The translations under genes and the position numbers were made by a program. The notes below the pieces were generated by a model. That model did not search any database, was not told the origin of the DNA, and saw only the letters and a list, made by a program, of their open reading frames with translations. Shown piece after piece: positions 39,875-58,477 of a DNA stretch of 58,477 bases (positions within the stretch are counted from its first letter, which is position 1; every line of letters starts with the position of its first letter). This DNA is from a virus, in the IMG/VR virus record IMGVR_UViG_3300030451_002321, positions 1-58,477 of that record; one strand, 5' to 3'.

Positions 39875-42800
39875 TCATGAGGGAGAAATTACTGGTTGGT
39901 CGTTTTCGTAGTTCAAAACGATAGGCTGCTCGCCATCTATAGGCATAACAACATGGTCCGTGCGCTTCTTTTCCTTGACCGGGCGACCCTCACCTTTAGG
40001 GTCATAATCCGGCAAATTGCGCTCTTCAGTAACCTTGGTTGGACCTTGAGGTGATTCAACAGGGGTGGCCACGTCAATACCCAGTCCCTTTGGACCAGTC
40101 CACGTCATGCGCTCCTTGGCCAAGCGGTCAATGGTGCGAGTAATCAGGTCAAGCGCCTTCTTCTTGCTTTCAGGCTTGAGGATGCGCTCGTCTTCTTCAT
40201 CCAACAGACCTGCTGATTCCTTCTGCTGCTCTTTGATGTTGGGAGGCTTGTCCTCCGCTTTGACAAGCACCTCCTCCAATAGAAGGGGGACAAAGGGGGT
40301 CCAGTACGCACTGATGGATTCAGCAATCTGCACAGGGTAGTCCGACTTGTGCATGTCACCAAGTTCTGACTTGGGTTCATACAAGTGCCATGCGTCATTG
40401 AATGCCTCAACCTTGTAGGTCACTGTACCGATGCCGTCGAACTTCAGCATTACGTTGGAGTCGGTTACGTCAATGTCAAACGGCACAAAGGTTGGCGGAT
40501 AGGATTTGGTAAGCAGGTCCAACGACTCGGCACTTGCTGCTCCTTCTCCTTCACCTTCTCCCTCAATCTCCCGCACATGAACGGTGTACACGTTGCGCCC
40601 ACCACGGTTCTTCTTCGTAACCCCTGAGATGGAAACACGAACGATGTCCCCCACCTTGAATGGCTTCTGTTGGTTACGAGCCGTACCCACGTCCATGTAG
40701 TCGTTCCCATCATGTTCAACCGCACGGTTACCGAGGACTGAGCCATCAAGAATGGGGCCTGCACCCAGTTGGTAGGTGTATGGGCCAGTGCCTCGACGGT
40801 CGAGGATGATGAAATTGAAGTCACGACTGGGACGCAGAACAATCCACTTTGGATGCCGTGCTTCACCACGCATGTAGGTGGACTTCGTGTCGCGCAACAG
40901 AATGGTTTCGTGTTCATCCTGAAGTCGCTTAACTGATTCAGCAAGACCTTCCTCGTCCGTCATCTTAGTGTCGTGTGGTCCGGGGACAATGACGCAATCG
41001 TGACTGTCAAACTGACTGCGCAGAACTTTGATGCGCTCAAACATCTGCATGTCAGAAATGTCATTGTTGTCGTAGTTCACGATGTCAATGACGTTCATCT
41101 CTTCATCGCCCAAGATGGCGTCAATAGCGTAGTCACGCTCATTCAACTTCTCCAAGGCTTCTCGGAACTTCTTCTTCACACCAACTTTGCGGTTGTTTTC
41201 ATCGAGTACGGTGATGGACTTACCGTTCTTCACCACCATGACACGCTTCCCATCGTACCACTTTGAAACCGCCCACGACCCGCTAAAGCCGCGAAGGTGC
41301 TCAAGGTCACTCAGTTCAAAGATGCGATGCATGGGGCGAATTGGGAGGACCCATTCGGCATCGTCTTCCTTGGTGAACAATACTTCAGGGTCAAGCAACC
41401 CGTTGATGAGGGCCGATGCCTCAGACAGTGCAAGCGTTTCGTAGTTGTCGCTAACAGGTGCCATGCCCTGTTCGTCAAGTCGGGTCCATGGTGCAGTCGT
41501 GTCGAGTGGTGGGTTCAGGTTTGGCTGAACTTGACTGTACCAGTCGTTACCAAACACCTGCTTGATGTGGTCTTGAGGTACAGGAGTAGCAAGCAGTGGT
41601 GACGGGTTTGGTCCTGCGAAGATACGTCCATCCGACTCAAAGTCAAAACCAATTGTTGGCTCATGCACTTCGTTTTGGAAATGTACGTTGTGACCCGTGT
41701 TGTATGTAGCATAGATGGCATGATGGTTTGGTCCTGCTCCCACAGGCATACCGTCGTGCCAACCGCGAATGGTCTGAATGTCGTCTGTGCCTCCACTGGT
41801 CGGAACGGCCATCGGGTCGTGTAGGATGAAAGCGTCAGCGTTGTTACGTGCGTTTGCGTTCATCCATCCATACGTGTTCTTGGAGCCATGGTTTGCCCTA
41901 CCGTGTGCATCGGAATGAATCATGCGCAGGCCAAACTCGTCAAGGGTTTCACCGAACATAGAGGGGTCCATCGCTCGCGCAAGCGTTGCAGGTAGGCGAT
42001 GAATGGGATGACCTTTCCATGTGCTTCTGTTATTTGCACCTTGGTACTTCTGTTGCTGAAGCATTGGGATGGCTTGAGAGTACCCATGTGTGTGAATAGC
42101 ATGGTTCAGTTCATCGTGCCCTTCCAAGTCAGCAATGTCCTGACCCATGAACTCTTCACCCCGATGGTGCATGTGAGTAGCGTCATGCATGTTCTTGCCG
42201 AGTTTCACACTGTCAAGGCCACCACTGGTGAGGATTTGTCCAATGGTTGACACATTCATTGGGTAACCGGCTTTGTTGACTGCATCAATGACTTGCTGAG
42301 CGTGTTCTTTCAAACCCGGTGAGATGTCCATACCAAGGATTTCCAACAACGCTTCGGGGGATTCAGTGCCCTGAACCTCGTAGCCGTTCTGCCCAACGTG
42401 GCTTGCGATGTCTTCGTAAGTTACGTTTTCAGCAGCGGCACGACTGACAACATCGGTCTTCAGACCGTATGCCTTGCGTGTCAAACCGTGAACTGAATGA
42501 GGGAACGAGGAAATGTACCGCTCAGCGTCGTGGAAGATTTGCAGCATGTTGGCCCACGCCTTCTCCGGCTCGTTGGGGTCAAACGCAGTCGGGTCTTCGG
42601 ATTCCGCGATGCTGCGCATGTAGTTGGCAACACCTGCAACCAAGTTTCGTGACTGCCGCATTTCCTCCATGTGGTGGTCTTCGTTGGTCTTCCACCAGTC
42701 ACTCTTGACTTCACCAAGTGCGCCTTTCTGCGCTTCCATCTGCAACTCGTTCAACCGTTGCTTGACTTCGTTGAGGCGAGGGCGCACCTCCTCAGAAGTG

Positions 42801-45643
42801 GCCTTTCCTTGCTCAAAGTCTTCCATGAGGCGCGTCATTTCCTCACTGAGCGATTGTTCTTCTTCCATAGCAGGAAGGGCTGCACCGATGGCAAGCATCT
42901 GAGCAATGCCGCGCCGAGGCGCGTCAATCATCAAACCTGAACCACTCTTGCCCTTCTTTCCTGATTCCATCATTTCCCGACGGGCGTGCTCGGAAAACAC
43001 AGGAATGTGGGCCTTCGCTTCGTCAAAGCGTCGCTCAACCTCATCGAGTGGGTACTCCTTACCTTCCTTTTGGTTGATGTGCTCCAAGAATTGTTCAGCG
43101 TGTTCAAGGTCACCACTGTTGAGGAAAGACTGGATTTCAGCAGGATTCGTTGAGTTGAGAATCTGCGCGATGTTGGAAATGGTCGTTACCGCAGGTCGCT
43201 CATTCTTTGAGTCAAGCATCTTGTACTTCGTGCGGTCAAGGGTTGGTAGTTTTGCCCCGCCCCATCCCATGAGTGAAACGAACTCATCCAACGATTCACC
43301 TGCCGGGAATGCAGATTGCCCGCTGATGACATCGTGATACGAAGACACGCTTTTGTTCGGTGGGTCGCGCGTGTGGTTCAGCAACCCGAGGTACACCGCT
43401 TGACGGAGGCCGTCTGTGACACGATGGTGCCCACTACCCATAGCAGCGTAATTCATTCCTGCTCCACGATGCATGAACTGGTTATGCGACAACTCGCTTG
43501 ACATGCGCTGCCGCTTTGTGCCTACGGATTCAAACGTCTTGTCAGGGTTCAGCCCCTTCATTGCTGCGCGGCGCATTTCGTATTCATACAACGGTGAAAG
43601 TGAATGCTTGAACAGGGTGTGATTGTTCTTGTGTGTAGCACCCTCAGCGTTTGGTCTTTTGACCGTGGACACACCTGCGGGTGACAAGATGTTACGCAGC
43701 GGCAACATCTTTGGAAGGTACGTGAACTTGCCCGCAGTAGTGTCATAGATGCCTTCCGTTTGAGTCATTGGTGGCATGAAGTGGTGAGCAAGGAAGCCAT
43801 TACCCATACGCTCAGTTGAATCCTGACCACCAAGTGCTTCACCACGGAACATGAAAGAGTTGCCATCATCGTCAGAAATGACGGAGTGAATGATGTCGTT
43901 GTACGTGCCAAGACTCATGTTTTGCCCACCGACACCACGGAAGGGTTGGTCCCAAAACGCACCGGGACCGTAGGTGAACCCATCACCTTCTGCCCACATT
44001 GGCGGTCGCTCTTCTTCAGGATGAGGACCGTGGGCGGCACGAAGGAACGACAGGTCGTTGCGAATCTGCTTCTGCATGCGCTCAAGGGATTCCAACTGAC
44101 TGCCGTTTTCAATCAACTTCTCGACCGTGGCCGCGTTGATTTGAGGCTCATTCGGATTTTGCACACCGTACATTGGGTGATTGGCCATCACCGTCCGTGT
44201 TCGCGGGTCATACCCTGCAAGGAAATACAATTCATCTGAAGTAAAACGAATACGGGTAGGGTCATGCTGCTTACCCTTCCTGAAATGAGCCTTGGATGCC
44301 TCTTTGATGTCATCCAACGAAAGGTCGGAGTCAAGCACTTCGTCCAAGTTCTTGAACTTGGGAAGGAAGTCCAGTTTGCTCTCTTTTCCATGTGCGTCCT
44401 GAATCATCTCAAGAACACGTTCATGGAATGACTTCTTGACAACGTTTCCGTCTTCATCAAACGTATCGAAGTCGTCCATGTAGTTCCACACAGATTGCCC
44501 AAGCCCGTGTTGCAAAAATCGTCCTTCGTCACCCTGCTTGTAGTCCCTGTCGTTGTCTTCCAGTTGCAAGTGAGCGTTTCGTCCCTTGCTACGAAAACCA
44601 CGGGTAGCCCAATCCATCTCCGGGGTCATACGGCTAAGCATGTTCCACCCAAGACGTGACGTGGAAAACAACGTGCCGTCAGGCAGTTTGATGTGATGGT
44701 GGTTTTTGCTGCCCTGAATGCCGTTGTTGAGAGCATCCCTAACGGTAGCGCGTTCACGGGGTGAAAGCCACTCAAGCCCCATGTGGTAGCCTTTGTGACC
44801 CAGTGCAGTTGGTTGACCGTCAATTTCATCTTGCTCAACCCAAGAGCGTGCTCGGTCATCGAAGTGTTCGTTGCGCAGTGCTTCTTCTGTACTGGTGTAA
44901 CCAAGTTCGCCCAACAGTTCTTGGTTTGCGTTCCAGTAGTCTTCCCGCTCAGGGTTACCACTTTTCCACCGCTTAAAATCGCGGTCGTACAAATCCACGG
45001 CGTGGTGGGTGTCAGGTGAACCGCGTCGCGGGTCACCAAGGATTTTCAGACGGCGGCTTGGCTCCTTCTTGTCGGGAATGAAGTCATGTAACACGGGACT
45101 CTTGGTGTCTTCCAAGTGTCGAATGAACTCCTGTTCCATCTCCTTTTCCTTCTGCGCGTGACCACCAAGATAGAAGTCACGCAGCAGGCCAACAAAGGCA
45201 GGCATACCCGTACGCGCAGACTTGCGCAGCAGTGGATGGTTGATTTCACTGAAGGGAAAGTTTTGCTCACGGTAAGGTGAGTTGAATGACGGAGGAGCGT
45301 ACGTTGGCCAAGCGGCGTGACCAAACTCACCCGCTGACATCAAACCGTCAATCCAAGCGTGGTTGCTCAGCGGGGTGGATTCGTCAAAGGCAAGAAGAGG
45401 CAACTTACCGGGCATGATGTGTTGGTCCCAACTTGATTCAAGACTGACTTTTTCCTCTTCCTCCAACTTGAGAATCTGCTCGGAGGCTTCCTTGAGCAAA
45501 CCGTACATCGAGTCTTGCGTGGGTGAATACTCAAGCGATTCCCACGCAATGACGTACTCCGCAGCGGAGTCACGCAGTTCTAAACCGTCGTTCAACGACT
45601 TCAGCAGGTTGACCGTTGCAATGTCAAACTGCTTGTAGGACAG
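39875..45643 (-). CDS. giant capsid-region protein with degenerate DNA-ligase-like domain
   Basis: About 1,922 residues. Most of the first ~1,400 is unrecognised, helical and charged, with His-rich stretches. Residues ~1410-1680 resemble an ATP-dependent DNA ligase: a nucleotidyltransferase part (WAVSKWYDGKRVMVV, DYAIDAILGDEEMNVIDIVN, MFERIKVLRSQF, PKWIVLRPSRDFNFIILDR) then an OB-like part (PFKVGDIVRVSISGVT). Key residues look lost: motif I reads K-W-Y-D-G-K-R, so the lysine is not at the normal place; motif III lacks its Glu; motif IV lacks EG. It is probably non-catalytic, perhaps binding DNA ends or nucleotide in the virion. A later segment, EAFNDAWHLYEPK, carries a DAW-type motif. Start: a CTG at 45643 behind GAGGGGGTG fits better than TTG 45595, which has no such site. 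Confidence 0.7.
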   Translation of the reverse strand: MSYKQFDIATVNLLKSLNDGLELRDSAAEYVIAWESLEYSPTQDSMYGLLKEASEQILKLEEEEKVSLESSWDQHIMPGKLPLLAFDESTPLSNHAWIDGLMSAGEFGHAAWPTYAPPSFNSPYREQNFPFSEINHPLLRKSARTGMPAFVGLLRDFYLGGHAQKEKEMEQEFIRHLEDTKSPVLHDFIPDKKEPSRRLKILGDPRRGSPDTHHAVDLYDRDFKRWKSGNPEREDYWNANQELLGELGYTSTEEALRNEHFDDRARSWVEQDEIDGQPTALGHKGYHMGLEWLSPRERATVRDALNNGIQGSKNHHHIKLPDGTLFSTSRLGWNMLSRMTPEMDWATRGFRSKGRNAHLQLEDNDRDYKQGDEGRFLQHGLGQSVWNYMDDFDTFDEDGNVVKKSFHERVLEMIQDAHGKESKLDFLPKFKNLDEVLDSDLSLDDIKEASKAHFRKGKQHDPTRIRFTSDELYFLAGYDPRTRTVMANHPMYGVQNPNEPQINAATVEKLIENGSQLESLERMQKQIRNDLSFLRAAHGPHPEEERPPMWAEGDGFTYGPGAFWDQPFRGVGGQNMSLGTYNDIIHSVISDDDGNSFMFRGEALGGQDSTERMGNGFLAHHFMPPMTQTEGIYDTTAGKFTYLPKMLPLRNILSPAGVSTVKRPNAEGATHKNNHTLFKHSLSPLYEYEMRRAAMKGLNPDKTFESVGTKRQRMSSELSHNQFMHRGAGMNYAAMGSGHHRVTDGLRQAVYLGLLNHTRDPPNKSVSSYHDVISGQSAFPAGESLDEFVSLMGWGGAKLPTLDRTKYKMLDSKNERPAVTTISNIAQILNSTNPAEIQSFLNSGDLEHAEQFLEHINQKEGKEYPLDEVERRFDEAKAHIPVFSEHARREMMESGKKGKSGSGLMIDAPRRGIAQMLAIGAALPAMEEEQSLSEEMTRLMEDFEQGKATSEEVRPRLNEVKQRLNELQMEAQKGALGEVKSDWWKTNEDHHMEEMRQSRNLVAGVANYMRSIAESEDPTAFDPNEPEKAWANMLQIFHDAERYISSFPHSVHGLTRKAYGLKTDVVSRAAAENVTYEDIASHVGQNGYEVQGTESPEALLEILGMDISPGLKEHAQQVIDAVNKAGYPMNVSTIGQILTSGGLDSVKLGKNMHDATHMHHRGEEFMGQDIADLEGHDELNHAIHTHGYSQAIPMLQQQKYQGANNRSTWKGHPIHRLPATLARAMDPSMFGETLDEFGLRMIHSDAHGRANHGSKNTYGWMNANARNNADAFILHDPMAVPTSGGTDDIQTIRGWHDGMPVGAGPNHHAIYATYNTGHNVHFQNEVHEPTIGFDFESDGRIFAGPNPSPLLATPVPQDHIKQVFGNDWYSQVQPNLNPPLDTTAPWTRLDEQGMAPVSDNYETLALSEASALINGLLDPEVLFTKEDDAEWVLPIRPMHRIFELSDLEHLRGFSGSWAVSKWYDGKRVMVVKNGKSITVLDENNRKVGVKKKFREALEKLNERDYAIDAILGDEEMNVIDIVNYDNNDISDMQMFERIKVLRSQFDSHDCVIVPGPHDTKMTDEEGLAESVKRLQDEHETILLRDTKSTYMRGEARHPKWIVLRPSRDFNFIILDRRGTGPYTYQLGAGPILDGSVLGNRAVEHDGNDYMDVGTARNQQKPFKVGDIVRVSISGVTKKNRGGRNVYTVHVREIEGEGEGEGAASAESLDLLTKSYPPTFVPFDIDVTDSNVMLKFDGIGTVTYKVEAFNDAWHLYEPKSELGDMHKSDYPVQIAESISAYWTPFVPLLLEEVLVKAEDKPPNIKEQQKESAGLLDEEDERILKPESKKKALDLITRTIDRLAKERMTWTGPKGLGIDVATPVESPQGPTKVTEERNLPDYDPKGEGRPVKEKKRTDHVVMPIDGEQPIVLNYENDQPVISPS

Positions 45644-45658
45644 GGGTACACCCCCTCA
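45644..45658 (-). promoter_or_regulatory. ribosome-binding site suggesting a CTG start
   Basis: The bases TGAGGGGGTGTACCC, directly before CTG 45643, hold both the stop of the previous gene and a strong Shine-Dalgarno-like GAGGGGGTG five bases from the CTG. The extra N-terminal residues, LSYKQFDIATVNLLKS, read naturally into the rest of the protein. Confidence 0.45.
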
Positions 45659-46408
45659 CATCAATTGCTCGAACTGAGGGCAGGCGAAAATATCCATTCC
45701 GGGGTGCAGACCGCATCCTGTACTGGGGGTACCCCCACAGGCTTTGCAAATAACAGGCATGCCTGCTGCCGCAGCAGCACGTGCATCACGGCTCTTCTTG
45801 AGAGGAGCAGACTCACCTTCAGCATCTTCGCGGTCAACACCGGTTCCCTCATGAGGATTCATGCGGCCTGAAAGTCCTTCCATGTCCACTTTCTTGTCGG
45901 CCTTCTTGCGCTTAGGCTTGGCGTCCTCGGTTTCAATGGGACGGTCACGGGTGGAGTAGTAAGCGGTACGGGTCTGTCCACCCGTTTCAGTCATGAAGTG
46001 GGGGTTGACGTTGGTAATCTTCTCAGCCATCTGCTCGCCTTCAGCCTTGGCCATGGTACCGCAGCCTGCCTTGAGGCAACCGCCCTTTTCCATCTTAGCG
46101 CCACACTCAGGACAATCCTTGGCTTTCTCGACTTTACCGTGGGCCTTGTCACATTCTGCTTTTTGCTTTTCAGTACATTCAGAATACTTCTTGCCGAAAC
46201 GCTTCATGCAGTACTTGTCTTTGTCGGCCATGCTCGCCTTCTGCATCTTGGTCGGGCCACCGCAACCCATCTTCATGCAGTTACCCATCTTGTCCAACTT
46301 TCCGTCGTCACACTTAGGACAATCACGGGCCTTCTCAAGCGTGTCAAGTCGAACGGCCATTTCGCGGGCCTTGGTCAGTGCTTCAGATTCAACGGGTCGT
46401 GGCTTCAT
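45656..46408 (-). CDS. multi-zinc-ribbon protein
   Basis: A 250-residue, Lys-rich protein with repeated CxxC units. The first is DCPKCDDGKLDKMGNC followed by GCGGP; the second is DCPECGAKMEKGGC with GCG; the third is ICKACGGTPSTGC with ACPQF near the C-terminus. The first two are internal duplicates. A helical, Lys/Cys-rich linker lies between them. The start overlaps the preceding gene (ATGA). Multiple zinc ribbons suggest DNA or protein bridging in the capsid, but no family was recognised. Confidence 0.65.
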   Translation of the reverse strand: MKPRPVESEALTKAREMAVRLDTLEKARDCPKCDDGKLDKMGNCMKMGCGGPTKMQKASMADKDKYCMKRFGKKYSECTEKQKAECDKAHGKVEKAKDCPECGAKMEKGGCLKAGCGTMAKAEGEQMAEKITNVNPHFMTETGGQTRTAYYSTRDRPIETEDAKPKRKKADKKVDMEGLSGRMNPHEGTGVDREDAEGESAPLKKSRDARAAAAAGMPVICKACGGTPSTGCGLHPGMDIFACPQFEQLM

Positions 46409-46743
46409 TCAGGTGCCCCCTTTGCTTGTTGTGCCATTTCGTGAATGTCTTCCCACGACATGTTGTGAAACTCTTCGTTTGATTGAGGAATAGAAGTAGC
46501 AGGGCCTCCCTTGAGGATGGAGTTGTTTTCCATGTCCATACGAAGGGGGTCGGGCATGAGGTCGTCCGCATACGGAGTGGTCACAGGGACGAAGCCCGCC
46601 TTGCGGAACAGTCCTTTGGGGGAGGAAATAAGGCTACGAAGGCGCTCATTTTCTGCTTTGAGCAAGGCAAGGTCAGAATCCATGCCTTCCATCTTGGTGA
46701 TGAGGACACTCATCAGGCGTTCAACCGATGATTCCTCAGTCAT
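46405..46743 (-). CDS. coiled-coil protein with scaffold-like C-terminal tag
   Basis: A 112-residue protein. Residues ~5-45 form a leucine-zipper-like coiled coil (LMSVLITKMEGMDSDLALLK followed by AENERLRSLI). The C-terminus, HNMSWEDIHEMAQQAKGAPE, matches the end of the protease-scaffold protein (SMSWDEVHNLAGRALRGE) at nine of about twelve positions or by close substitution. Both could dock on the same surface of the procapsid, for instance the portal or the capsid interior. The start follows the previous stop by five bases. Confidence 0.65.
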   Translation of the reverse strand: MTEESSVERLMSVLITKMEGMDSDLALLKAENERLRSLISSPKGLFRKAGFVPVTTPYADDLMPDPLRMDMENNSILKGGPATSIPQSNEEFHNMSWEDIHEMAQQAKGAPE

Positions 46744-46748
46744 TCAAA

Positions 46749-47171
46749 TCAGCCCCATCGTCCAAGGGTTCCTTGGGCGCGAGTCATGCGCCCCTTGTAG
46801 CCGTTGGAAATGACACCGGGAATGCGTGGTCCTTCCATAGGAACCGTTTCCACCTCTTGCACAAACTTGCGCACAGGAACACCACCGGCGAAGATGTCGT
46901 TGGGACCGCGAGCGTTGGGAAGAGCGTCTTGCGCCTTCGCAATCTCAAGGTTGAGGTCTTCAAGCAAGTAGTCGCTCAACTTGCTGACTTCAGACAGGTG
47001 CTCCTTTGCAAGACTTCCATCGCCACTTTCAAGGGCAGTCTGAAAAGCGTTTTGCGCTTGTTGCATTTTACGGGCCATGGGGTGCATCTTGAGCAGGTCC
47101 AAATCAATCCCTCGTTTCTCGCAGGTGGGTGGTGGATAAAAAGATTCAGGCCCCACGGGGTCGTCGGGCAT
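46749..47171 (-). CDS. small helical protein next to portal
   Basis: A 140-residue protein starting 26 bases inside the end of the portal gene. The GTG at 47156 is an alternative start. A Pro-rich N-terminus is followed by helices: KMQQAQNAFQTALESGDGSL and EHLSEVSKLSDYLLEDLNLE. It is acidic in the middle and basic at the end (YKGRMTRAQGTLGRWG). It may be a portal-associated or internal head protein; no family was recognised. Confidence 0.55.
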   Translation of the reverse strand: MPDDPVGPESFYPPPTCEKRGIDLDLLKMHPMARKMQQAQNAFQTALESGDGSLAKEHLSEVSKLSDYLLEDLNLEIAKAQDALPNARGPNDIFAGGVPVRKFVQEVETVPMEGPRIPGVISNGYKGRMTRAQGTLGRWG

Positions 47172-48894
47172 TCAGAAGTGCGTTGCTAACGTTCTGTGCC
47201 AAGTTAGGTTCAGGACCACGTTGTTGAACGCTGCTAACCGGGGCACCGCTGCCCACTGTAGCACGTCGCTCAGGAGCAGCCGGACCTCGATTACGAATGC
47301 CCATGCCTTGACCACCGGGTTGTGGTGGAGGCATTGGCATACCGGGCGGCATACCACGGGCCATCGGCATACCACCTTGCATTTGAGGTGGCATTGGCAT
47401 CCCTCCACCCGGCGGCATACCCGGAGGTGGCATCGGCATACCCGGTGGGGCACCACCCGGCGGCATACCGGGTTGTTGCGGTTGTGGCTTGCGGTACACG
47501 AAGCGAATGTCGCGGTTTGATGGGTCCTCAAGCAGTTCCGGTTGGAAGCCCAGTTGAGCCATGCGCTGAGCCACGTTGAGTTCCTGCTCGTCGCGGCGCA
47601 GGCGAGTAATTTCGTCTTCTTCCTCGTTGGGGTACAACGTAAGTTTCCAATCGTTGACACTCATTTGCTTGAGCAAGCGCGGGAACAGAACATCGGTGTA
47701 CACCTTTTGGCCAAACTCAACGGCACGGTTGGTGACAAGAATCTGCATGCCTTCGTTGTTAAGGCCACCGGACTTACCGTTGTCCACCATGAAGATGCTC
47801 GACACACCATAGAATGCAGCAATGCGGTTACGGATTTCCTCACGGACAGGAATGTACTGCATCTCCTCAAGTGTGTCCATGAACTTTATCCAGTTCACAC
47901 CACCGCGACCCGTTTGACTTTCAATTCCAACACGTGGAATGTAGTGTGGGTCGCGCTCCATCTTTTCATCAACAGACTTCCAAAACGACTTCATGGACTC
48001 AAGATTGTCCGTGGTGACAGAAATGATGCCCTTGGGCATTCGGCGCTTTTGGTACGCGGTGTACATGTAATTGTCCATGGCCGTAAGCGTCATGGCCTGA
48101 CGCCACATGGTGTTGACCGGACTTCGACCGTACAACTTTGATGGCGTGTACTTGCTCACGTGCAGAACTTCACCCTCAATGAAGTACTGCGTCTTACCGC
48201 TTCCTGCCATGTTGACGTAATGCACGTCCTCAAGTTCTCGACCGCACACGTCACACGTCTTGTCATCAGCGTGCGTCTTGACTTCGTTGCGATGGATGCG
48301 GCAGACCTTGAAACGACCACCACGTACACCGCGCTTGTCAGCGACAATGCGCATGAAAATGGGGTCACCGCGAACCATTTCCTTAATTCTATAGAATGCA
48401 ATGTCCTTGGACTCAGGGTCAATGAAGTACTCCTTGACCAAGATGAGGAAAGCGTCGTCCACAATGTTGAGGTCGTTTTCAATTTCATGTAGCAGGTGAA
48501 CAAAAGATTGCTCCATTGAGTTTTCCTGATTCAACAACCACTTGGGGTAGGTCAACTCATCAGGGTCAGGTTTGCGTACTGAGCCACCGCACGTGGTACA
48601 CTCAGTCATTTCCTGTTGGAACTCTTCGTCACACACCGTACACTTCGATGTGAACTTCTTTTCCCAGTAGTAACCACGACGGAACATTTCCTGTCGCAAC
48701 TTGGAAAGAACCGTGCGCAGAATCAGGGATTCGTTGCTGACCGCGTACAGGGCAGGGATGGTGATACCCTGCGCCATGACCGGCTCCTGAATGCCGCTCG
48801 ACCACAACGGCATAGTTGGAGTGGGCGATTCGCGGGAGCGAAACGGGCGACGGAGGCCCGACAAGAAGCGAGAAATACGTCCTTCTTCAGCCAT
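47146..48894 (-). CDS. portal protein with zinc ribbons
   Basis: A ~582-residue portal (dodecameric DNA gateway at the capsid vertex). The core has YTPSKLYGRSPVNTMWRQAM, DNYMYTAYQKRRMPKGII, the IRNRIAAFYGVSSIFMVD and GGLNNEGMQILVTNRAVEFG phrases, and VLFPRLLKQMSVNDWKLTLY near the clip/wing. Two zinc-ribbon insertions are unusual: CTVC...CTTCGG near 85-103, and CRIH...CDVCGREL near 200-225. The C-terminal ~100 residues are a Pro/Gly/Met-rich tail with runs such as PPGMPMPPPGMPPGGGMPMP, probably disordered. ATG 48894 overlaps the previous stop. Internal zinc binding in portals is something I associate with archaeal head-tailed viruses. Confidence 0.85.
   Translation of the reverse strand: MAEEGRISRFLSGLRRPFRSRESPTPTMPLWSSGIQEPVMAQGITIPALYAVSNESLILRTVLSKLRQEMFRRGYYWEKKFTSKCTVCDEEFQQEMTECTTCGGSVRKPDPDELTYPKWLLNQENSMEQSFVHLLHEIENDLNIVDDAFLILVKEYFIDPESKDIAFYRIKEMVRGDPIFMRIVADKRGVRGGRFKVCRIHRNEVKTHADDKTCDVCGRELEDVHYVNMAGSGKTQYFIEGEVLHVSKYTPSKLYGRSPVNTMWRQAMTLTAMDNYMYTAYQKRRMPKGIISVTTDNLESMKSFWKSVDEKMERDPHYIPRVGIESQTGRGGVNWIKFMDTLEEMQYIPVREEIRNRIAAFYGVSSIFMVDNGKSGGLNNEGMQILVTNRAVEFGQKVYTDVLFPRLLKQMSVNDWKLTLYPNEEEDEITRLRRDEQELNVAQRMAQLGFQPELLEDPSNRDIRFVYRKPQPQQPGMPPGGAPPGMPMPPPGMPPGGGMPMPPQMQGGMPMARGMPPGMPMPPPQPGGQGMGIRNRGPAAPERRATVGSGAPVSSVQQRGPEPNLAQNVSNALLNARRPRGA
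47318..47486 (-). repeat. low-complexity Pro/Gly/Met repeat in portal tail
   Basis: A run of imperfect short repeats of the ggc-ata-ccn-ggn type (on the plus strand) coding MPPPGMPPGG-like units at the portal C-terminus. The repeats are translated low complexity, with no spacer-repeat pattern and no terminal inverted repeats, so this is protein-coding repetition rather than a mobile or regulatory element. Confidence 0.8.
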
Positions 48895-50192
48895 CACACA
48901 CCCTCCGCGTACACACCAATTGTGTCGGCATCAATGCCCCACTTGTCAAGCAGACCGTCGGCCTTTGCTTTATGGTCTTTCCAATTGGAGAAAGTCACAA
49001 GCCGGTACAACTCCTGCTTGCGCATTGAATCGGTTTCATCCACATATGTCAGCATAGCACGTGCCTGTGTGGTCTTCAACATCATGTGAGGAAGGGTGGC
49101 CTTGAGCACACGGCGAATGTCGTCTTTGCGAGAAAAGATGAGACGGTGTACGCTTTTCTTTGTGTTCTTCGACACCTTTTGGTCCGTCACAAGACGACCA
49201 CACCCCATGGCCTTGTGCAAGTCCTCACACAGTTGCTTGCCTGAATCACCACTGGCCACAAACGTCACCCGTGGGTCACCACGTTCGCTGATGAAGATGC
49301 TACCGTCAGAATCCAACGAGCCTGCCATGTATGCCCAAATGTCCTTGATGATGAATCCTTCACGCCCCAACTTCACGTAGTCACCACGTGACGTGCTCTT
49401 GAAGATGTTCAACTCCTCTCCGTACATTTTGAGCAGTGAACTCATCCGCTTAGGCGTGAGATTGCGATTGAGAGTACCAACCCCACGACGGATAATCTCA
49501 CGGCTACTGAGATGGCCATTTTCCTCCAATTGCTCAGACGCAAAGTACAGTGCAGTCTGCTCTTCCTTAGCCAAGGAATCAACTTGGTGTAGTACGTTTC
49601 GCCACATTTTGCGAGCATCCTTCTGCATTTGCGTAGCATCCACCCACGATTGTTGGTCGTCAATCGTCCAATCCACCTTACCGTTGAGCATTTGCAGGAC
49701 GGTGTTGGCCTTCAAGAATTGGTGACATGCCTTCTGCAACGACACTGAGCGGGACTCTCCGAACTTGCGCAGCGCCTTGAGGCTGCGGTCAGTCAGTCCC
49801 ATTTGTTTGATGACGCTTTCCATGCCGTCCGACCATGACAAGTTGCCAATGGTTGCCTCCACCTCAAGTGACTTGAGTTGTCGAACAAGACCAATGGTTT
49901 CGTCGTACTCGTCACGGTTGGCTTTGTCGTGACGGCGCATTTTGCGGCACTCACGAATAATGGTATCAGCATCCTTGCCCCAGTAGGTTTCAAGCCACCC
50001 ATCACCGTTCTTTGGGAACTCACGCTTCTTCAGTTCTTTGTTGATGTACACCGAAGATGTCTGCTGAAGCGGTAGGTCACGTGGATTGAATGCGGGGTGC
50101 TGAGCGAGGTTGTTCACGACCATTTTGGTCAGCGCGTCTTCGCAGACAACAGGGAGGTCATAGGCATCCCCGACCAACGCGCTCCCCCACAT
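48894..50192 (-). CDS. LAGLIDADG-family nuclease-like protein in packaging cluster
   Basis: A protein of about 430 residues. The first ~200 residues are helical and charged, with no known domain. A winged-helix-like region follows near 215-280 (LSSREIIRRGVGTLNRNLTP). Then comes a single LAGLIDADG motif, WAYMAGSLDSDGSIFI, with the catalytic aspartate position kept (residue ~297), followed by SVHRLIFSRKDDIRRVLKA and AMLTYVDETD, as in this family. One motif suggests a homodimer. It lies between TerL and portal, with tight coupling to the portal gene, so it does not look like an intron or intein passenger. It may help cut DNA for packaging, like the HNH nucleases next to terminases in HK97-like phages. 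ATG 50192 was chosen over GTG 50201. Confidence 0.7.
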   Translation of the reverse strand: MWGSALVGDAYDLPVVCEDALTKMVVNNLAQHPAFNPRDLPLQQTSSVYINKELKKREFPKNGDGWLETYWGKDADTIIRECRKMRRHDKANRDEYDETIGLVRQLKSLEVEATIGNLSWSDGMESVIKQMGLTDRSLKALRKFGESRSVSLQKACHQFLKANTVLQMLNGKVDWTIDDQQSWVDATQMQKDARKMWRNVLHQVDSLAKEEQTALYFASEQLEENGHLSSREIIRRGVGTLNRNLTPKRMSSLLKMYGEELNIFKSTSRGDYVKLGREGFIIKDIWAYMAGSLDSDGSIFISERGDPRVTFVASGDSGKQLCEDLHKAMGCGRLVTDQKVSKNTKKSVHRLIFSRKDDIRRVLKATLPHMMLKTTQARAMLTYVDETDSMRKQELYRLVTFSNWKDHKAKADGLLDKWGIDADTIGVYAEGV

Positions 50193-50245
50193 AATGACCA
50201 CTCACTTGACCATTGGTTAAAAGCCCCACTCTCCAAATGGGTATT

Positions 50246-51733
50246 TCATGGCGTCAACCACCCTCCAAACCGGTTGCCCTGATTCTTGTCTTTGCCTCCA
50301 CCGAGCCAATCACCGAAACCGGGCATGTAGTCGTCAAGCATCACAATGCTGCCACGGAACTCCTTGGTGCCCCAATTGGCCAACGCAAGAGCCATGGCCA
50401 AGTCATCGTGGGTGCCCACGCTTTCCAACTTCCCATTTTTCTGCATACCAAAGCGGTTGAGTTCTTGCTCCAACTTGTGCGTGAACGTACGGCTGCGCTC
50501 GTCACCGTAGGGCGTACGAATGTGACCTTGCTCAAAGGCCATGAGGAGAGACATGAACATGGATTCCTTGCGTTGCCTTGTGGTCATGAAGGTCTTGATG
50601 GGAATGTCGTCACGCATGTCTTGCAGTTCAGCAGCGAACATACGTTGGAAGTTGTTGCCTTCAAGTTCAATCAGGTCCGGTTGGAAACGGTTGTTGAGCA
50701 GCAAAATGTGCTTTTTCTGCGCTGCACTACCCAGTCCCTTTTCGTGAACAATACCGACAATTTGCTTTTGGTTGTCACCGGGCAGCACCCGCATCACCAG
50801 CATAGCCGTGAAGTCAGCGTTCTTGTCAGACGCAATAGCCGTGTCCCACCCAATGAAGTGTTGACCAAAGACACCCATTGGTTCGCCTTCTTCGTCGTGC
50901 TCCATTTCAGCGCGGTCAAGCAAAACAAGGTTCTTGTCCCGAGCCTTCTCCAAAATGTCATTGGGAAACATACTGGCAACGTCGTGAATCGGCTCACACA
51001 AGTACTCACGCGAAAACTGAATGGCGGGCATGGACAAACGCCGTTGGTCCAGTGACTCCAAATCCCATCGCTCAGGCCACAGGGCTTTGCCCTCGTTGTC
51101 AATTGCAGGGTAGGTTTCAACGGTGAACGCCTCACGCTCCTCCAGTTCAGCGTACAGGTCGTTGTAACTGAACGGTGTACCGACAATCATCATGCGGCCC
51201 GTGTGGTGGAGCACAGGAAGCAGAACACCATAGAACCAGTCAGCCGCACGCTGCAACTCCGTACCGGTTGTGCCCCACAGAATGTCGTCGCACACCACAA
51301 CGTTTGGGTGGAAACCACGGGTACCACCGCCCACGGACTTTGCCATCATACGGCTCCCGTTAGTGAACTCAAAGTACGTCTTGCGCCATGGTCGGCCTTC
51401 AGGGGTAAGGTGACGCAAACATGGTGTGGATTCGATGTTGTTGCGGATAAACCGCATGTGCTCAAGCGTCTGCTCAAGCGAGTGCGAGAAAATCATGACG
51501 TGAGTGTTGGGCTGAAAAGCCGCAATCCACAGGGCATAGGACATGAAAAAGACAGACTTGCCGTGGTCACGGCTTGCTTTCACACAGTAGTATCTGTTAC
51601 TGGCAAGTCCGTTGTCCCACGATTCGTGGTGACCTGAGTAATCGAAGCCAAGGATTTCAGTGAAGAAGTACTTGAACGACTTGGCAGACATCTGCCGGTC
51701 CATCTCATGGATGAACTCTTCCATGTCGGACAT
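50246..51733 (-). CDS. terL: terminase large subunit
   Basis: A 495-residue packaging motor. The ATPase part has Walker A ASRDHGKSVFFMS (52-64), Walker B VVVCDDI (145-151), and the coupling motif MMIVGTPFSYNDLY. The C-terminal RNase H-fold nuclease keeps its three acidic positions: FIGWDTA, DLIELEGNNFQRMF and VGTHDDLAMALALA. It would cut concatemeric DNA and drive it through the portal using ATP. The start overlaps the preceding stop (TGATG). An arginine-rich C-terminal tail is not present; it ends FGGWLTP. Length and motifs are normal for the family. Confidence 0.95.
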   Translation of the reverse strand: MSDMEEFIHEMDRQMSAKSFKYFFTEILGFDYSGHHESWDNGLASNRYYCVKASRDHGKSVFFMSYALWIAAFQPNTHVMIFSHSLEQTLEHMRFIRNNIESTPCLRHLTPEGRPWRKTYFEFTNGSRMMAKSVGGGTRGFHPNVVVCDDILWGTTGTELQRAADWFYGVLLPVLHHTGRMMIVGTPFSYNDLYAELEEREAFTVETYPAIDNEGKALWPERWDLESLDQRRLSMPAIQFSREYLCEPIHDVASMFPNDILEKARDKNLVLLDRAEMEHDEEGEPMGVFGQHFIGWDTAIASDKNADFTAMLVMRVLPGDNQKQIVGIVHEKGLGSAAQKKHILLLNNRFQPDLIELEGNNFQRMFAAELQDMRDDIPIKTFMTTRQRKESMFMSLLMAFEQGHIRTPYGDERSRTFTHKLEQELNRFGMQKNGKLESVGTHDDLAMALALANWGTKEFRGSIVMLDDYMPGFGDWLGGGKDKNQGNRFGGWLTP

Positions 51734-52494
51734 CAGCCCATCCTCTTCAGCAAGTAGTTCAAGGCGTGAGTAAATGGGTCAGCGGAGTTTGTAACTGGCA
51801 TGTACGTATTACCCGGTTGGCCCGGTGGCATGAATTGATTACCCACTCCTTGCTGCTGCGGTTGCTGCCCCTGTTGAGGTTGCTGAGGAGCGGTCGGAGC
51901 GGTCACTGGTGGTTGTACCGCAACTGGTTGTGTGGGAGCAGTTACCGGGGCAGGGGCGAATTGTTGCGTTGGTTGTTGCTGAGCCATAGCACCCAAGGTT
52001 GCTTGAGGAAAGATGTTTTGCTGAGGGTTGTACTGAGCACCACCTGCACGTTGATTCGTGCTGAAAAAAGCCGGTGCTCCCTCAGGGAGGAGGTTGTTTG
52101 ATGGTTGATACGAAGGGGTAACGCTTTGTGGAAGTGGGATGCTTGCAGGAGACTGGGGTTGTTGAGGTCTTGGACCCAAATCCTCTATGTTGTTGGTGAG
52201 GCTAAACGGCACGTTTGCCCTGTACATCGCAGGTGCGCTCAAATAGGCTTCAGCACCACGTCCTGATTGTGCTTGTTCCGCTGCTTGTTGTGCGGTAGCC
52301 ACCGCAGAAAAACCACGACCTGCAAGGTCACCCATAGCAGCAAGACGAGTGCCAAGTTTTCGATTTCGTCCAAAAGCAGCACCGGCCAAATCACGAAGAC
52401 CATGTTTTCCTGCCCCAACTGTGAATTGAACGTCACGCGAACCGGGAACCAAACCCACTGCGCTTTCGTTCTTGAGGACGAGGACTGGCTTCAT
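51733..52494 (-). CDS. Gln/Pro-rich protein with C-terminal DAW-like motif
   Basis: A 253-residue protein. The N-terminal ~75 residues are basic with mixed strand and helix (RKLGTRLAAMGDLAGRGFSA). The rest is long low-complexity Gln, Pro, Ala and Thr, with runs such as PQQPQQGQQPQQQGVGNQF. The last residues, DPFTHALNYLLKRMG, resemble the recurring DAW motif. GAGGTGA lies before the ATG. It is upstream of TerL and coupled to it. Function unknown; an intrinsically disordered linker or tether is likely. Confidence 0.6.
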   Translation of the reverse strand: MKPVLVLKNESAVGLVPGSRDVQFTVGAGKHGLRDLAGAAFGRNRKLGTRLAAMGDLAGRGFSAVATAQQAAEQAQSGRGAEAYLSAPAMYRANVPFSLTNNIEDLGPRPQQPQSPASIPLPQSVTPSYQPSNNLLPEGAPAFFSTNQRAGGAQYNPQQNIFPQATLGAMAQQQPTQQFAPAPVTAPTQPVAVQPPVTAPTAPQQPQQGQQPQQQGVGNQFMPPGQPGNTYMPVTNSADPFTHALNYLLKRMG

Positions 52495-52498
52495 TGCT

Positions 52499-54673
52499 TC
52501 ACCTCAGACTCATTTTGATGACCTTGACGACTTCAGGGGTTGTGGAGTAGGACTTTGCGATGTTGTGCCAATCACCCATGGTGTGGTTGATGGTCGTTAC
52601 TTCTTCTGAGGTGAGTCCTACATAAGAAGCCAACTGACGCGCAGAAGACAACGATGACGACATGTGCTTGGTGACGTTTGCATCGAGTTCAGCCTCGCGG
52701 TACTGCATTCGCTCAAGTGCCTTCATCACTTGGTCCATGACGGGTAGGTGAGAATCTTCGCTGCGCAGGAATTGAGTCAGCATGGTTTGTTGCGGGTCAG
52801 CAAGTGCAGCACGGCTGCGCAACTCTTGCTCGGTAAATTGGGTTGGGTCTTCGGGCATCACTTGTCTTCCACTCCCTGCGGCCTGTAGCATCTGTCTGTA
52901 CGCTTCCGGTGTCATTGTTGCAATGTTTCGTCGGTTTGCTTGGAACGTTGGGTCCATGGGTTGCATCATTGTTGGTCGGACGGTGGGTTCCAAAGGTGCC
53001 CCTGCGCCCAGTCTGGGAGGCGGAGGTGAAGAACCTCTCCCCTCGATGGTGGAACTACTTCCATCAAGGGGTTGTGTCGCGGACGCAGGGACTCGTTCAA
53101 TTGGCTCGATGTGGCCGGGTGCATGGTTGGCGAAGTGACCAACGGTTGGATAGTGGTAGTTTTGCATGTGCTCTTCAAGAGCAATGGTCGGCTCTATTTG
53201 GTTGCCGTAGTAATTCACAAGGTCAGCGCCAACCATGCGCTCGGTAGGAATCTCACCAAGACCCCGACGTGTCTGATGGCCACGACCTTCTGCTTGGTGG
53301 TCAGCCAGTGCTTCGATGATACGACGGTTGGTTTCAGATGCGGCTTGGTCTTCAGGGGACGGTGAGCCGAACGTCATTTCACTGAGAGCGGAGCGTCCTT
53401 CTTCTTCACCGTGGCCAAACACGCGAGCAAGGCCCATGACACGCGCAGCCTTGTCGTGCATCCCTGAGCCTTTACCTGATGCCCCACCGGTGAAGTATTG
53501 CCGGTGGTCGTCGTACGAAAGCCCATCAGCAACATCTTCGATGCGCTCCATGACTTGGTTGTACAGACGCATGAAGTTACCACCACCCTGATTGGCGCGA
53601 CCAAACAGGAACATCATGGCAGGAATGCTTGACACTTCTTTGATGACACCATCAATCAACGACGGGTCTTGCAACGCTTCACGCAGGGGACGCTGCATGC
53701 GTCCTCCCGGTCCGTCGAATGTAACCGGAATGTTTGGAATGGAGTCAATTTTACCCTCACGTACCAATTGCATGATGTGCTCCTTGGCCGTACGCATCAT
53801 GGCAACGGGCATTTTGTTTTGCTTCATTGGTCTGAAAAACACGTCAGGCAGATGATGCAATGCTTCCCACGTGAACACGGGTGATTGTTGCGAGTGAGCA
53901 AAGTCATCTGAAAACGGTGCCTTGGAATCCTCAAGCATAGCCCCACCGGGGTCGTCCATAATCGAATGAATGTACTTGGGTGGAGCAGTGTAGTTGGCGT
54001 ACACATACGGTTTGTTTTCCTGTAGGAACTTGGCGTTGCCTTCCAAAGAGCGAACGTTGTCCTCACCAATCAGTTCTTCCAACAAGTGGCGCAGTTCAAC
54101 GTTGAACGGCAAGTAGTAGGATTCAACAAACTCACCGTTAGGGTTGGTTGCCGCACCACGGTTGGTTGCAAGGGTCACCTTTGTGCCGTCATGAGCACGT
54201 GAGGGGCGGTTGGTTTCCTCACGGCTTGCCATGGTGTCAGTAGGCAGTGGGGCTGAGCGCAACTTGCGCCATTCCTCACTGTCGAACGAACTTAACTTGT
54301 GTGCCTCGTCTTTGTGTTTGTCGTTGTACAGGTCAATGGCGCGGTTCATCAGTTCAACCACGTCACCTGACTGCACATTGAAGCGCATTTTTTGCAGTCC
54401 CTTTAGCAAGCGATACGCTGCTGCGTCAATGCCGTGTTGGAAAAACGCACGACCGTCATCACGGGTATGGTAGTAGTGAATGCCCCCATCGTCCTTTTCC
54501 CATTGCCCTTCGTACACGTTGCCGTGTCCGTCGTGAGCAAAAGCAGGAGCGTCAAGTTCTCCTTGAGGTCGGAATGCTTGGGGTGGCGGGTTACGCAAAA
54601 CCACTCGACCACGAGGACCTGAGTGGACAAGCCCCCATGCCTTGAGAAGCATGGGGACGTTTGCGTAAATCAT
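52499..54673 (-). CDS. large hypothetical protein in packaging cluster
   Basis: A 724-residue protein of unknown function. The N-terminus starts MIYANVPMLLKAWGLVHSG. It contains mixed helical segments (SIPNIPVTFDGPGGRMQRPL), a Pro/Ser/Thr-rich, disordered region at about 540-600, and a C-terminal helical part ending WHNIAKSYSTTPEVVKVIKM, which looks like a helix-turn-helix. It overlaps the upstream gene (ATGA). The late-packaging position suggests a virion-internal or DNA-binding protein. No catalytic motif seen. Confidence 0.6.
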   Translation of the reverse strand: MIYANVPMLLKAWGLVHSGPRGRVVLRNPPPQAFRPQGELDAPAFAHDGHGNVYEGQWEKDDGGIHYYHTRDDGRAFFQHGIDAAAYRLLKGLQKMRFNVQSGDVVELMNRAIDLYNDKHKDEAHKLSSFDSEEWRKLRSAPLPTDTMASREETNRPSRAHDGTKVTLATNRGAATNPNGEFVESYYLPFNVELRHLLEELIGEDNVRSLEGNAKFLQENKPYVYANYTAPPKYIHSIMDDPGGAMLEDSKAPFSDDFAHSQQSPVFTWEALHHLPDVFFRPMKQNKMPVAMMRTAKEHIMQLVREGKIDSIPNIPVTFDGPGGRMQRPLREALQDPSLIDGVIKEVSSIPAMMFLFGRANQGGGNFMRLYNQVMERIEDVADGLSYDDHRQYFTGGASGKGSGMHDKAARVMGLARVFGHGEEEGRSALSEMTFGSPSPEDQAASETNRRIIEALADHQAEGRGHQTRRGLGEIPTERMVGADLVNYYGNQIEPTIALEEHMQNYHYPTVGHFANHAPGHIEPIERVPASATQPLDGSSSTIEGRGSSPPPPRLGAGAPLEPTVRPTMMQPMDPTFQANRRNIATMTPEAYRQMLQAAGSGRQVMPEDPTQFTEQELRSRAALADPQQTMLTQFLRSEDSHLPVMDQVMKALERMQYREAELDANVTKHMSSSLSSARQLASYVGLTSEEVTTINHTMGDWHNIAKSYSTTPEVVKVIKMSLR

Positions 54674-55953: not shown

Positions 55954-56627
55954 CAGTTCACCCCCATGTTCTCCGTCAATTGCGCCTTAAGCCGCGCCCA
56001 TACTTCAGGACTTTCCTTACTGAGTTCAACCTGCAAGATGTTGAAGGTTTGATTGACCTGCTGCGTGTCGCTTTGCGCACCCCATTGGTCTTGGAATCGC
56101 ATGAGGTCCTTGACCGACTCACGGATTTCCTTGTGCAGCGACACGGCGTCACGAACAAATCCGTCCTCATGCACGCTGCCTTCGTCAAGCAATTCGCTCA
56201 ACTTGTGGTTCAACCGCTCAGCGTTGCTGCGAAGCAGTTCAATCTCGGTGCCCGCACGCAGTGCAACCTCAATGGCTGCGGTCTTTTGCACCAAAGGCTG
56301 AAAGTGATTCTTCATGTGTTGATACACGACGTTTTCACTGACTTCTAACTCCTGAGCAATCAGGTCACTGTTGCCGGTGTTGAAGTACAACTCTTCGTAC
56401 GCAGCACGTTGAGGGGAAGTACACACTGGGCAAGACGAGTTTGCAGCAAGGTGAAACTCACCCATGTGGTTGCGCCAGTGACGCTCGGTCGTGCCAAGCC
56501 GCCAACCCTTGTCCTTGTCCAGTTGCTTAGGTGAAATGTGGCCGTTCAGCAACGCTTCTTCAAGCGTGTCACGCTCTTCATCCATGCAAAAAGCACAGGA
56601 CCGTTTGTACACACGGTCCCCGCTCAT
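55953..56627 (-). CDS. tandem zinc/helix-turn-helix protein, small-terminase-like
   Basis: A protein of about 224 residues with a duplicated unit. The first is CAFCMDEERDTLEEALLNG... to HWRNHMGEFH; the second is CPVCTSPQRAAYEELYFNTG... to YQHMKNHF. Each is CxxC, helix-turn-helix, HxxxH, a pattern common in phage DNA-binding proteins near terminases. The C-terminal half is coiled-coil-like (RSNAERLNHKLSELLDEG). It precedes TerL by three genes, so a small terminase subunit that recognises viral DNA is a fair guess. ATG 56627 is chosen. The frame extends to a GTG at 56690 that overlaps the previous gene, and a TTG near 56654 is another option. Confidence 0.65.
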   Translation of the reverse strand: MSGDRVYKRSCAFCMDEERDTLEEALLNGHISPKQLDKDKGWRLGTTERHWRNHMGEFHLAANSSCPVCTSPQRAAYEELYFNTGNSDLIAQELEVSENVVYQHMKNHFQPLVQKTAAIEVALRAGTEIELLRSNAERLNHKLSELLDEGSVHEDGFVRDAVSLHKEIRESVKDLMRFQDQWGAQSDTQQVNQTFNILQVELSKESPEVWARLKAQLTENMGVN

Positions 56628-56664
56628 GCCTGTTCTTAAGTGAGTCCGTTTCAAAAGCGTTCCG

Positions 56665-57527: not shown

Positions 57528-57528
57528 G

Positions 57529-58464: not shown

Positions 58465-58477
58465 TCTTCCTCCACCA

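Follow-up and report, generated by a model that had tools for sequence, protein, structure and literature searches.

A LAGLIDADG gene between terminase and portal

Is a LAGLIDADG gene lying between the terminase and portal genes of a virus a selfish visitor, or has it become a working part of the packaging module? The question arises in the window analysed here, a whole stretch of 58,477 nt from a large group of marine tailed viruses that is presumably magrovirus-like and whose hosts are probably archaea. The ORF concerned (48894–50201, minus strand) opens with a GTG, and an internal ATG at 50192 offers an alternative start. Since Met4-Trp5 (GTG numbering, used throughout) is unchanged in an initial 14-sequence alignment of the family, the ATG is preferred, giving a gene at 48894–50192 and a protein of 432 aa (435 aa from the GTG at 50201). 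The upstream neighbour encodes the terminase large subunit (TerL, 50246–51733, minus strand) and the downstream neighbour the portal protein (47146–48897, minus strand). The terL stop lies 53 nt from the ATG, and the portal ORF shares 4 nt with the gene at the portal start, which bears out the tight coupling to the portal proposed in the initial annotation. Both neighbours are long open frames that profile searches identify, so neither is interrupted, as had also been proposed.

The protein consists of a conserved helical domain, a winged-helix-like segment and a single LAGLIDADG domain of the I-CreI/I-MsoI type. The motif WAYMAGSLDSDGSIFI on which the original assignment was based is present in the ORF (MAGSLDSDG, residues 292–300, 49302–49328, minus strand), and the domain that carries it (about residues 286–412, 48966–49346, minus strand) has one motif, as in I-CreI and I-MsoI. 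The assignment is now backed by profile and by fold: a profile of 14 family sequences matches I-CreI over residues 286–412 (1af5: E=1.9e-4 over 286–410) and a tandem I-CreI fusion (E=5.8e-8), phrog_5046 and the protein match with E=2.8e-6, and the predicted structure, which has the alpha-beta-beta-alpha-beta-beta-alpha fold of LAGLIDADG proteins, matches I-MsoI with Z=14.6 and an rmsd of 2.8 over 129 aligned residues. Hits to 'Pizza' designed proteins in the profile search were discarded as repeat artefacts. Pfam (E up to 1) and NCBIfam (E up to 0.1) gave no LAGLIDADG match for the protein, so that routine annotation would overlook the domain.

The N-terminal domain, winged helix included (residues 62–285, 49347–50018, minus strand), is predicted with a pLDDT of 92.9, and its R89, R90, K93, W123, R151 and C159 are near-invariant. 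Structures of the winged-helix type match about residues 208–283 (49353–49580, minus strand) with borderline scores (Z 8.0–8.6 over 61–72 residues), which lends moderate support to the winged-helix-like segment noticed initially. The top row of the structure list for the N domain (Z 8.8) was rejected, since it matches two helices in another part of the domain and is unrelated. For the helical part (residues 62–205), no match stood out among PDB structures or by sequence (best E=0.062). Over both domains, the best viral structural match is the BFVD entry A0A516LD89 (E=1.0e-16; N domain, E=8.8e-5), a viral protein of 533 aa that is longer than the window protein.

Catalytic residues and proposed activity

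D297, G300, R353 and K376 are unchanged in all 301 distinct proteins; K376 (49074–49076, minus strand) aligns with I-CreI Lys98. The catalytic aspartate D299, whose conservation had been put forward as a sign of nuclease activity, is kept in 296 of the 301. Asn replaces it in five proteins, the genes of which are still intact and constrained. Judging from this substitution, cleavage has probably been lost in one sub-lineage that nevertheless keeps the protein, an indication that it also serves in binding or as a structural component. I-MsoI belongs to a mobile intron. I-CreI is likewise a mobile-intron enzyme, according to its PDB title, and the window protein resembles the two in fold (Z about 13–14.6), motif, catalytic Asp and aligned Lys, whereas it is fixed and has an N-terminal part of 280 residues.

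One may ask whether the LAGLIDADG fold is used here mainly for binding, in a DNA-binding regulator or a structural packaging protein. Such a role would accord with the winged-helix-like segment and with the purifying selection acting on the five Asn-for-Asp proteins, but the near-complete retention of the Asp and the invariance of the Lys exceed the demands of binding alone, and I regard it as unlikely. A domesticated LAGLIDADG protein that is a fixed head or packaging part, and that serves the terminase as a DNA-binding and DNA-cutting partner, is instead the probable reading. I infer homodimerization, cleavage, a packaging role and a target as follows: recognition of DNA, or of the terminase/portal complex, would fall to the N-terminal helical and winged-helix domains; the LAGLIDADG domain, as a homodimer, would cut both strands of concatemeric viral DNA at a specific site, and this cut would start or end packaging, much as HK97 gp74 promotes cos cutting.

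Fixation in the virus group

Sporadic presence among relatives with empty sites, the pattern of a selfish homing element, had been named in the initial annotation as what would speak against domestication; it was searched for through TerL and the portal, with the best 80 matches given per search and loci counted among the matches listed. In the first TerL search the gene was present in 79 of 80 loci; the remaining locus stops 1.1 kb past terL. Together, the two TerL searches listed 160 loci, of which 134 show TerL, the gene and the portal; the rest end at contig edges, ten inside or just after the gene and 16, with TerL only, at most 1.5 kb past terL. Relatives thus have the gene at the same place. 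The two portal searches listed 147 loci: 138 carry the gene, and the other nine are six haloviruses and three loci cut off upstream. Among these 307 listed loci no empty site (TerL and portal present, gene absent) was found in this group, loci without the gene being cut-off contigs or having portals that belong to other virus families. Sporadic presence was likewise not found within the group; this result and the conservation of the aspartate give good support to the domestication suggested at the outset.

When all searches were pooled (491 loci, repeated contigs included), 452 loci had a portal and both domains, representing 238 distinct gene sequences. Both domains lie on one ORF in 450 of the 452, and all 450 ORFs are on the portal's strand and upstream of it; the ORF is split in one contig only (L017/L079). 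A portal without the gene was seen at 13 of the 491 loci. Ten of these are halovirus or methanogen-virus portals (L182–L185, L418–L423), and in the other three (L399, L469, L473) the contig begins 0.2–2.7 kb upstream of the portal; the contig of L473 bears the gene at its other end (L568). Every retrieved locus with a complete gene also shows TerL or the portal. Spacing varies: in 18 loci the gene and the portal are 0.15–2.4 kb apart, and the distance to TerL reaches 3.1 kb. In the long genomes the gene is single-copy (14/14); three of the 14 matches were flagged with one internal stop, probably because the match runs beyond the gene's own stop, and the corresponding ORFs are whole through both domains. 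Two copies occur on one contig of 184,733 bases. A tblastn search of the 'phages' collection gave no match to the protein at E limits of 0.01 and 0.001. The sole match in a prokaryote genome (L264) most likely lies on a viral contig that was binned into a MAG, since IMG/VR has an equally long contig whose TerL is 100% identical. That the gene is fixed beside the packaging genes in all complete examples examined suggests that it has become a lasting functional component of the virus, possibly of the packaging motor.

A second clade, the TerL of which is 36% identical, carries the gene too. Its ORF opens between -4 and +14 nt from the terL stop in 71 of the 77 loci having TerL, and the distance to the portal reaches 3.6 kb. 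A profile of the N domain derived from first-clade sequences missed 23 of the 80 loci, whose ORFs are of 451–693 aa. As these 80 loci were retrieved by the gene itself, they are unable to show its absence; four second-clade loci found by the portal comprise two with the gene, one with the gene at the contig's other end and one cut off.

Co-divergence and selection

Over 183 viruses, protein distances of the gene correlate with those of TerL (0.94) and of the portal (0.955), none of 999 permutations giving values as high, and the correlation holds in both deep clades. The whole-gene dN/dS is 0.064, against 0.041 for TerL and 0.040 for the portal; by domain, it is 0.024 for LAGLIDADG and 0.045 for the N domain. 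The decay after fixation that marks a selfish gene is thus not seen (one split against 450 whole ORFs, and this low dN/dS), nor are several places or copies, with the 184,733-base contig standing alone beside the 14 single-copy genomes.

These data bear on the possibility that a free-standing, selfish homing endonuclease has spread to fixation and is now maintained by homing from one co-infecting virus to another. The catalytic domain is indeed that of homing endonucleases, terminase neighbourhoods are described as hot spots where homing genes gather (excerpt of PMC10448857), and the Druskaviridae HNH genes in the corresponding position appear to be selfish. Yet the group shows no empty site among the listed loci, the gene is single-copy and always seen with TerL or the portal where complete, its divergence follows theirs in two deep clades, it has a large conserved second domain, and where the catalytic Asp was lost it is still whole and under constraint, all of which makes selfish homing improbable. 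Another possibility is an interference weapon that cuts the genomes of related co-infecting viruses and favours its carrier, so that all survivors carry the gene. Phage PhiPA3 gp210 provides a precedent (excerpt of PMC11620839) and the catalytic domain is under purifying selection; near-universal presence would, however, leave few sensitive targets, and the constant place in the packaging module and the retained Asp-to-Asn lineage also weigh against this idea, to which I give a low probability. LAGLIDADG enzymes are known as sequence-specific cutters, which makes very improbable a structure-specific, debranching nuclease that clears recombination junctions for packaging in the manner of T4 endonuclease VII, even if its position in the packaging module and the absence of PF01844 HNH from all 14 long genomes (PF01844 profile search) would fit.

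Relation to HNH packaging proteins

The probable reading, a domesticated terminase partner, has parallels of another fold. The skunavirus protein HrdP, a GVE2-like HNH protein, lies between TerL and the portal in all 89 skunaviruses analysed, and a packaging role has been inferred for it (excerpt of PMC12724721). It resembles the window protein in place, group-wide presence and inferred role, but has an HNH fold and belongs to bacterial phages, whereas the window protein combines LAGLIDADG with a large N-terminal domain. Cleavage of cos by TerL is stimulated by HK97 gp74, an HNH protein (excerpt of PMC9410871); gp74 too is a nuclease-type gene product encoded next to the terminase, with the difference that its biochemistry is known while the window protein is known here from computation. 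The fixed place beside TerL and the portal is common to all three; the window protein has no HNH motif, its catalytic domain being LAGLIDADG.

In Druskaviridae, the portals of which are related to those of the window group at about 30%, an HNH gene lies exactly between TerL and the portal in HVTV-1, HVTV-2 and HCTV-5 (HVTV-1 genes gp109 and gp111 surround TerL). It is sporadic: HCTV-1 has none and HCTV-16 has one only before TerL. These HNH genes come and go in the selfish pattern, whereas the LAGLIDADG gene shows no such pattern. No similarity was found between either the N domain or the LAGLIDADG domain and HVTV-1 gp108, gp109 or gp111. The initial annotation had suggested an independent replacement of packaging HNH proteins. 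A counterpart is plausible, given place, fixation, selection and the HrdP parallel; a strict replacement is less certain, HNH itself being sporadic at this place in viruses with related portals. The best reading, by analogy, is that the protein may be a domesticated packaging-module endonuclease that corresponds, with a LAGLIDADG fold, to HK97 gp74 and to skunavirus HrdP. A bolder version, which I put forward tentatively and at somewhat less than even chances, is that a captured LAGLIDADG protein, not an HNH one, has served the terminase of the window's virus order since before the split of the two deep clades, as an obligatory partner that cuts at a specific site or licenses the cut, and that in one sub-lineage it became a non-cutting DNA-binding part.

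Whether terminase-side HNH genes are packaging parts or hot-spot homing genes, or perhaps both, has been discussed as open (excerpt of PMC10448857). If a nuclease of a different, unrelated fold is fixed where HNH sits in other viruses, this would count as strong evidence for repeated recruitment of a helper nuclease by packaging modules, and the catalytic and natural Asp-to-Asn versions make a clean case for testing. A probable role would also be assigned to a gene that is core to ocean viruses of worldwide distribution and that is missed or mislabelled by the profile libraries used. No text joining 'magrovir' with LAGLIDADG or homing endonuclease was found in a literature search that lay outside the main magrovirus and HNH packaging papers, which may name the gene. 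Among the matches listed for LAGLIDADG, terminase and portal, no excerpt dealt with these viruses; the nearest concerned the herpesvirus terminase, the HCMV subunit pUL56 being reported to hold a LAGLIDADG-like pattern, LATLNDIERFL (excerpt of PMC6950143). As described there, that pattern lies inside a terminase subunit, whereas the window encodes a separate protein with a whole LAGLIDADG fold.

Search for a packaging site, and the terminase subunits

Comparison of 12-mers between window positions 44500–58477 and 183 dereplicated loci marked no cos-like element. The most-shared 12-mers sit almost all inside the TerL and portal genes, with two in the LAGLIDADG gene and one at 53832, and therefore look like coding motifs. 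Contig ends fall within 300 nt upstream of the terL start in 25 of 142 cases; they were considered and rejected as fixed genome ends, since no end sequence is common to them and several fall in stretches of low complexity; they look like assembly breaks. TerL itself matches a nuclease-type domain, the acidic residues of which are invariant, and therefore need not rely on a partner nuclease. As a separate TerS, the conserved gene at 55953–56690 (minus strand), itself weakly identified (phrog_2538, E=0.035; HVTV-1 gp108, E=1.5e-4 in a 10-protein search), may be a better candidate than the LAGLIDADG protein. A homologue of it is present in all 83 first-clade loci whose TerL starts past position 6800.

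Gene position and predicted fold

The LAGLIDADG open reading frame (48894-50201, minus strand) lies between terL (50246-51733) upstream and the portal gene (47146-48897) downstream. Met4-Trp5 does not vary across 14 relatives, which makes the ATG at 50192 the better start; residues are numbered here from the GTG at 50201. The gene lies 53 nt from the end of terL and overlaps the portal gene by 4 nt, in agreement with the tight portal coupling described in the initial annotation. No LAGLIDADG match to the protein was obtained in Pfam (E up to 1) or NCBIfam (E up to 0.1). A profile built from the 14 relatives matched I-CreI over residues 286-412, and the protein is matched at 2.8e-6 by phrog_5046 of PHROGs. 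This family is labelled 'HNH endonuclease', yet its match is the LAGLIDADG domain of the window protein's family; the label may be misleading.

In the whole-protein model (61 input sequences, pLDDT 84.3, pTM 0.55), the LAGLIDADG domain has the predicted order alpha-beta-beta-alpha-beta-beta-alpha and superposes on I-MsoI, I-CvuI and I-CreI with Z 12.8-14.6. The large N-terminal region noted initially is helical when the N domain is modelled alone (residues 62-285, 74 rows, pLDDT 92.9); the winged-helix-like unit predicted at its end is borderline (Z 8.0-8.6). Comparisons with the PDB and by sequence gave no outstanding match for the helical part.

The gene is fixed between terL and portal

Neighbourhoods were collected in 491 loci, many of them overlapping pieces of the same contigs, from three protein, two TerL and two portal searches, plus the window locus itself, four phage regions with annotation and a single genome contig. 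The best 80 matches per search entered the counts, so that members beyond those may differ. The portal and both domains were found in 452 of the 491 loci, 424 of which also showed TerL; the two domains share one open reading frame in 450 of the 452, representing 238 distinct gene sequences. The remaining 39 comprise 13 portal loci (ten haloviruses or methanogen viruses and three that begin shortly upstream of portal), 16 TerL-only contigs that extend no more than 1.5 kb past terL, and 10 that break off inside or just after the LAGLIDADG gene.

Since loci found by the gene cannot reveal its absence, the fair test lies in the TerL and portal searches. TerL, the gene and portal were all present in 134 of 160 TerL-found loci, the other 26 being cut off, which bears out the claim of fixation between terminase and portal. 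Among 147 loci first found by portal, 138 carried the gene; the nine others are six haloviruses and three cut-off loci. Within these two sets (best 80 matches per search), no locus combined a window-type TerL and a window-type portal without the LAGLIDADG gene. Sporadic presence with intact empty sites, named initially as the mark of a selfish homing element, was therefore not found in the group. In many loci of the first clade, the window's own, about 1-3 kb of variable genes split terL from the LAGLIDADG gene (e.g. L264:6984-7661; one encodes a lysine-rich 225-aa protein), and portal coupling is mostly kept there.

A second deep clade was reached through two portal-found outliers, L455 and L480. 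Its TerL and portal are 36% and 49% identical to those of the window, and the L480 homologue is 23-29% identical to first-clade LAGLIDADG proteins. Searching with the LAGLIDADG gene itself supplied 80 loci of this clade, of which 77 show TerL. Relative to the end of terL, the open reading frame starts at -4 to +14 nt in 71 of these 77 and 312-797 nt away in the other six, with portal 0.1-3.6 kb further on. The gene thus hugs portal in most of the first clade and terL in the second, and stays between both genes in either. In L480 (1840-3693) and L455 (1241-3481), a NUDIX domain is fused to the C-terminus.

Conservation and constraint

Residues were counted in 301 distinct proteins from both clades (302 alignment rows, the window being present twice). 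D297, G300, R353, K376, K286 and Y291 are kept in all 301; K376 aligns by profile with Lys98 of I-CreI. D299, which corresponds to the catalytic Asp20 of I-CreI, is kept in 296 and replaced by Asn in five, so the aspartate whose conservation was proposed as a sign of nuclease activity is nearly always retained. Position 322 is basic in 298, and R89, R90, K93, W123, R151 and C159 of the N domain each occur in 298-299.

Across 183 dereplicated viruses, LAGLIDADG protein distances correlate with those of TerL (0.94) and portal (0.955), as expected of co-inherited genes, although this does not amount to a formal test of trees. Taken clade by clade, the correlations (TerL/portal) are 0.80/0.89 and 0.72/0.79, compared with 0.93 and 0.67 for TerL versus portal; none of 999 permutations was as high as any of these correlations. 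By domain, median dN/dS was 0.024 (LAGLIDADG, 81 pairs) and 0.045 (N domain, 75 pairs); over 66 pairs, the whole LAGLIDADG gene gave 0.064, compared with 0.041 in TerL and 0.040 in portal. Constraint on the gene is strong, if somewhat weaker than on terL and portal, and distances between its proteins are roughly 1.5 to 2 times as large as for TerL and portal.

The D20N change abolishes cutting by I-CreI. The I-CreI D20N/DNA complex is a solved structure, according to its title. The five proteins with Asn come from five contigs (L489, L458, L442, L452 and L467) and are also changed at three other well conserved positions. A selfish gene unable to cut should decay; these genes have an intact reading frame, keep their place and evolve under purifying selection (dN/dS 0.04-0.14), and cutting is therefore probably not required in this small lineage.

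Each of 14 long records (89.8-115.6 kb, not necessarily complete), drawn from both clades, contains exactly one copy. Given this, the lack of empty sites among the TerL- and portal-found loci and purifying selection, the gene is very probably domesticated, as first proposed. Two copies (L510 and L529) lie on another, over-long contig of 184,733 bp, IMGVR_UViG_3300021958_000021, which may be an assembly chimaera of two viral genomes.

Comparison with HNH genes and a possible function

In phage HK97, cos cleavage by TerL is enhanced by gp74 (PMC9410871); in skunaviruses, the HNH protein HrdP lies between TerL and portal in all 89 analysed, while their other HNH genes vary (PMC12724721). The LAGLIDADG protein shares place and fixation with these packaging HNH proteins, and the initial comparison holds to that extent; its fold is LAGLIDADG instead of HNH. 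In Druskaviridae, by contrast, HNH genes show the come-and-go pattern of homing genes: they fall directly between TerL and portal in HVTV-1, HVTV-2 and HCTV-5, precede TerL in these three and in HCTV-16, and occupy two additional places in HCTV-5, whereas in HCTV-1 TerL adjoins portal with no gene between. The LAGLIDADG gene lacks such a pattern, and PF01844 (HNH) matched in none of the 14 long records.

By analogy, a packaging-nuclease function is the best explanation and a moderately likely one. The protein would be a homodimer acting together with TerL as a site-specific cutter or cut-licensing factor, with the N domain serving targeting. Since the window TerL has its own nuclease-type domain, whose invariant acidic residues are presumably catalytic, and a separate TerS candidate is present, the protein seems to supplement the terminase, replacing neither subunit. 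A search for conserved DNA elements (window 44500-58477 against 183 dereplicated loci) did not locate its DNA target, nor did comparison of contig ends locate genome ends. No earlier report of such a gene was found in literature on LAGLIDADG with terminase and portal or on magroviruses with LAGLIDADG or homing endonucleases, key papers lying outside the coverage.

Virus group and other features

Among named phages, Druskaviridae have the portal closest to that of the window, and this family groups with magroviruses in PMC8651126; I infer that the window is a magrovirus. It carries a thermosome (group II chaperonin) gene at 2523-4025 (plus strand, E=7.9e-132). Family B polymerase was found in eight of nine long genomes tested and a chaperonin gene in all nine. 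Of the three second-clade genomes among them, two have a polymerase divided into two pieces and one shows a single short piece, and chaperonin scores are much lower in all three; this resembles what the ICTV describes for Aobingvirus (split PolB, GroEL-type chaperonin, 90-100 kb; PMC10768690). The Druskaviridae TerL (L182) showed no significant similarity to the window TerL in the comparisons made; as the portal family is common to both, terminase genes may have been exchanged.

By eye, the terminase of a haloarchaeal-type virus (L423:389-2878) seems to contain an intein that includes an endonuclease-like region. In the window, a 1906-aa structural-module protein (39875-45595, minus strand) has a weak ATP-dependent DNA ligase match at residues ~1500-1585 (PF01068, E=0.0039, below the cut-off), and a 5523-aa open reading frame (10313-26884, minus strand) occupies about 28% of the window.
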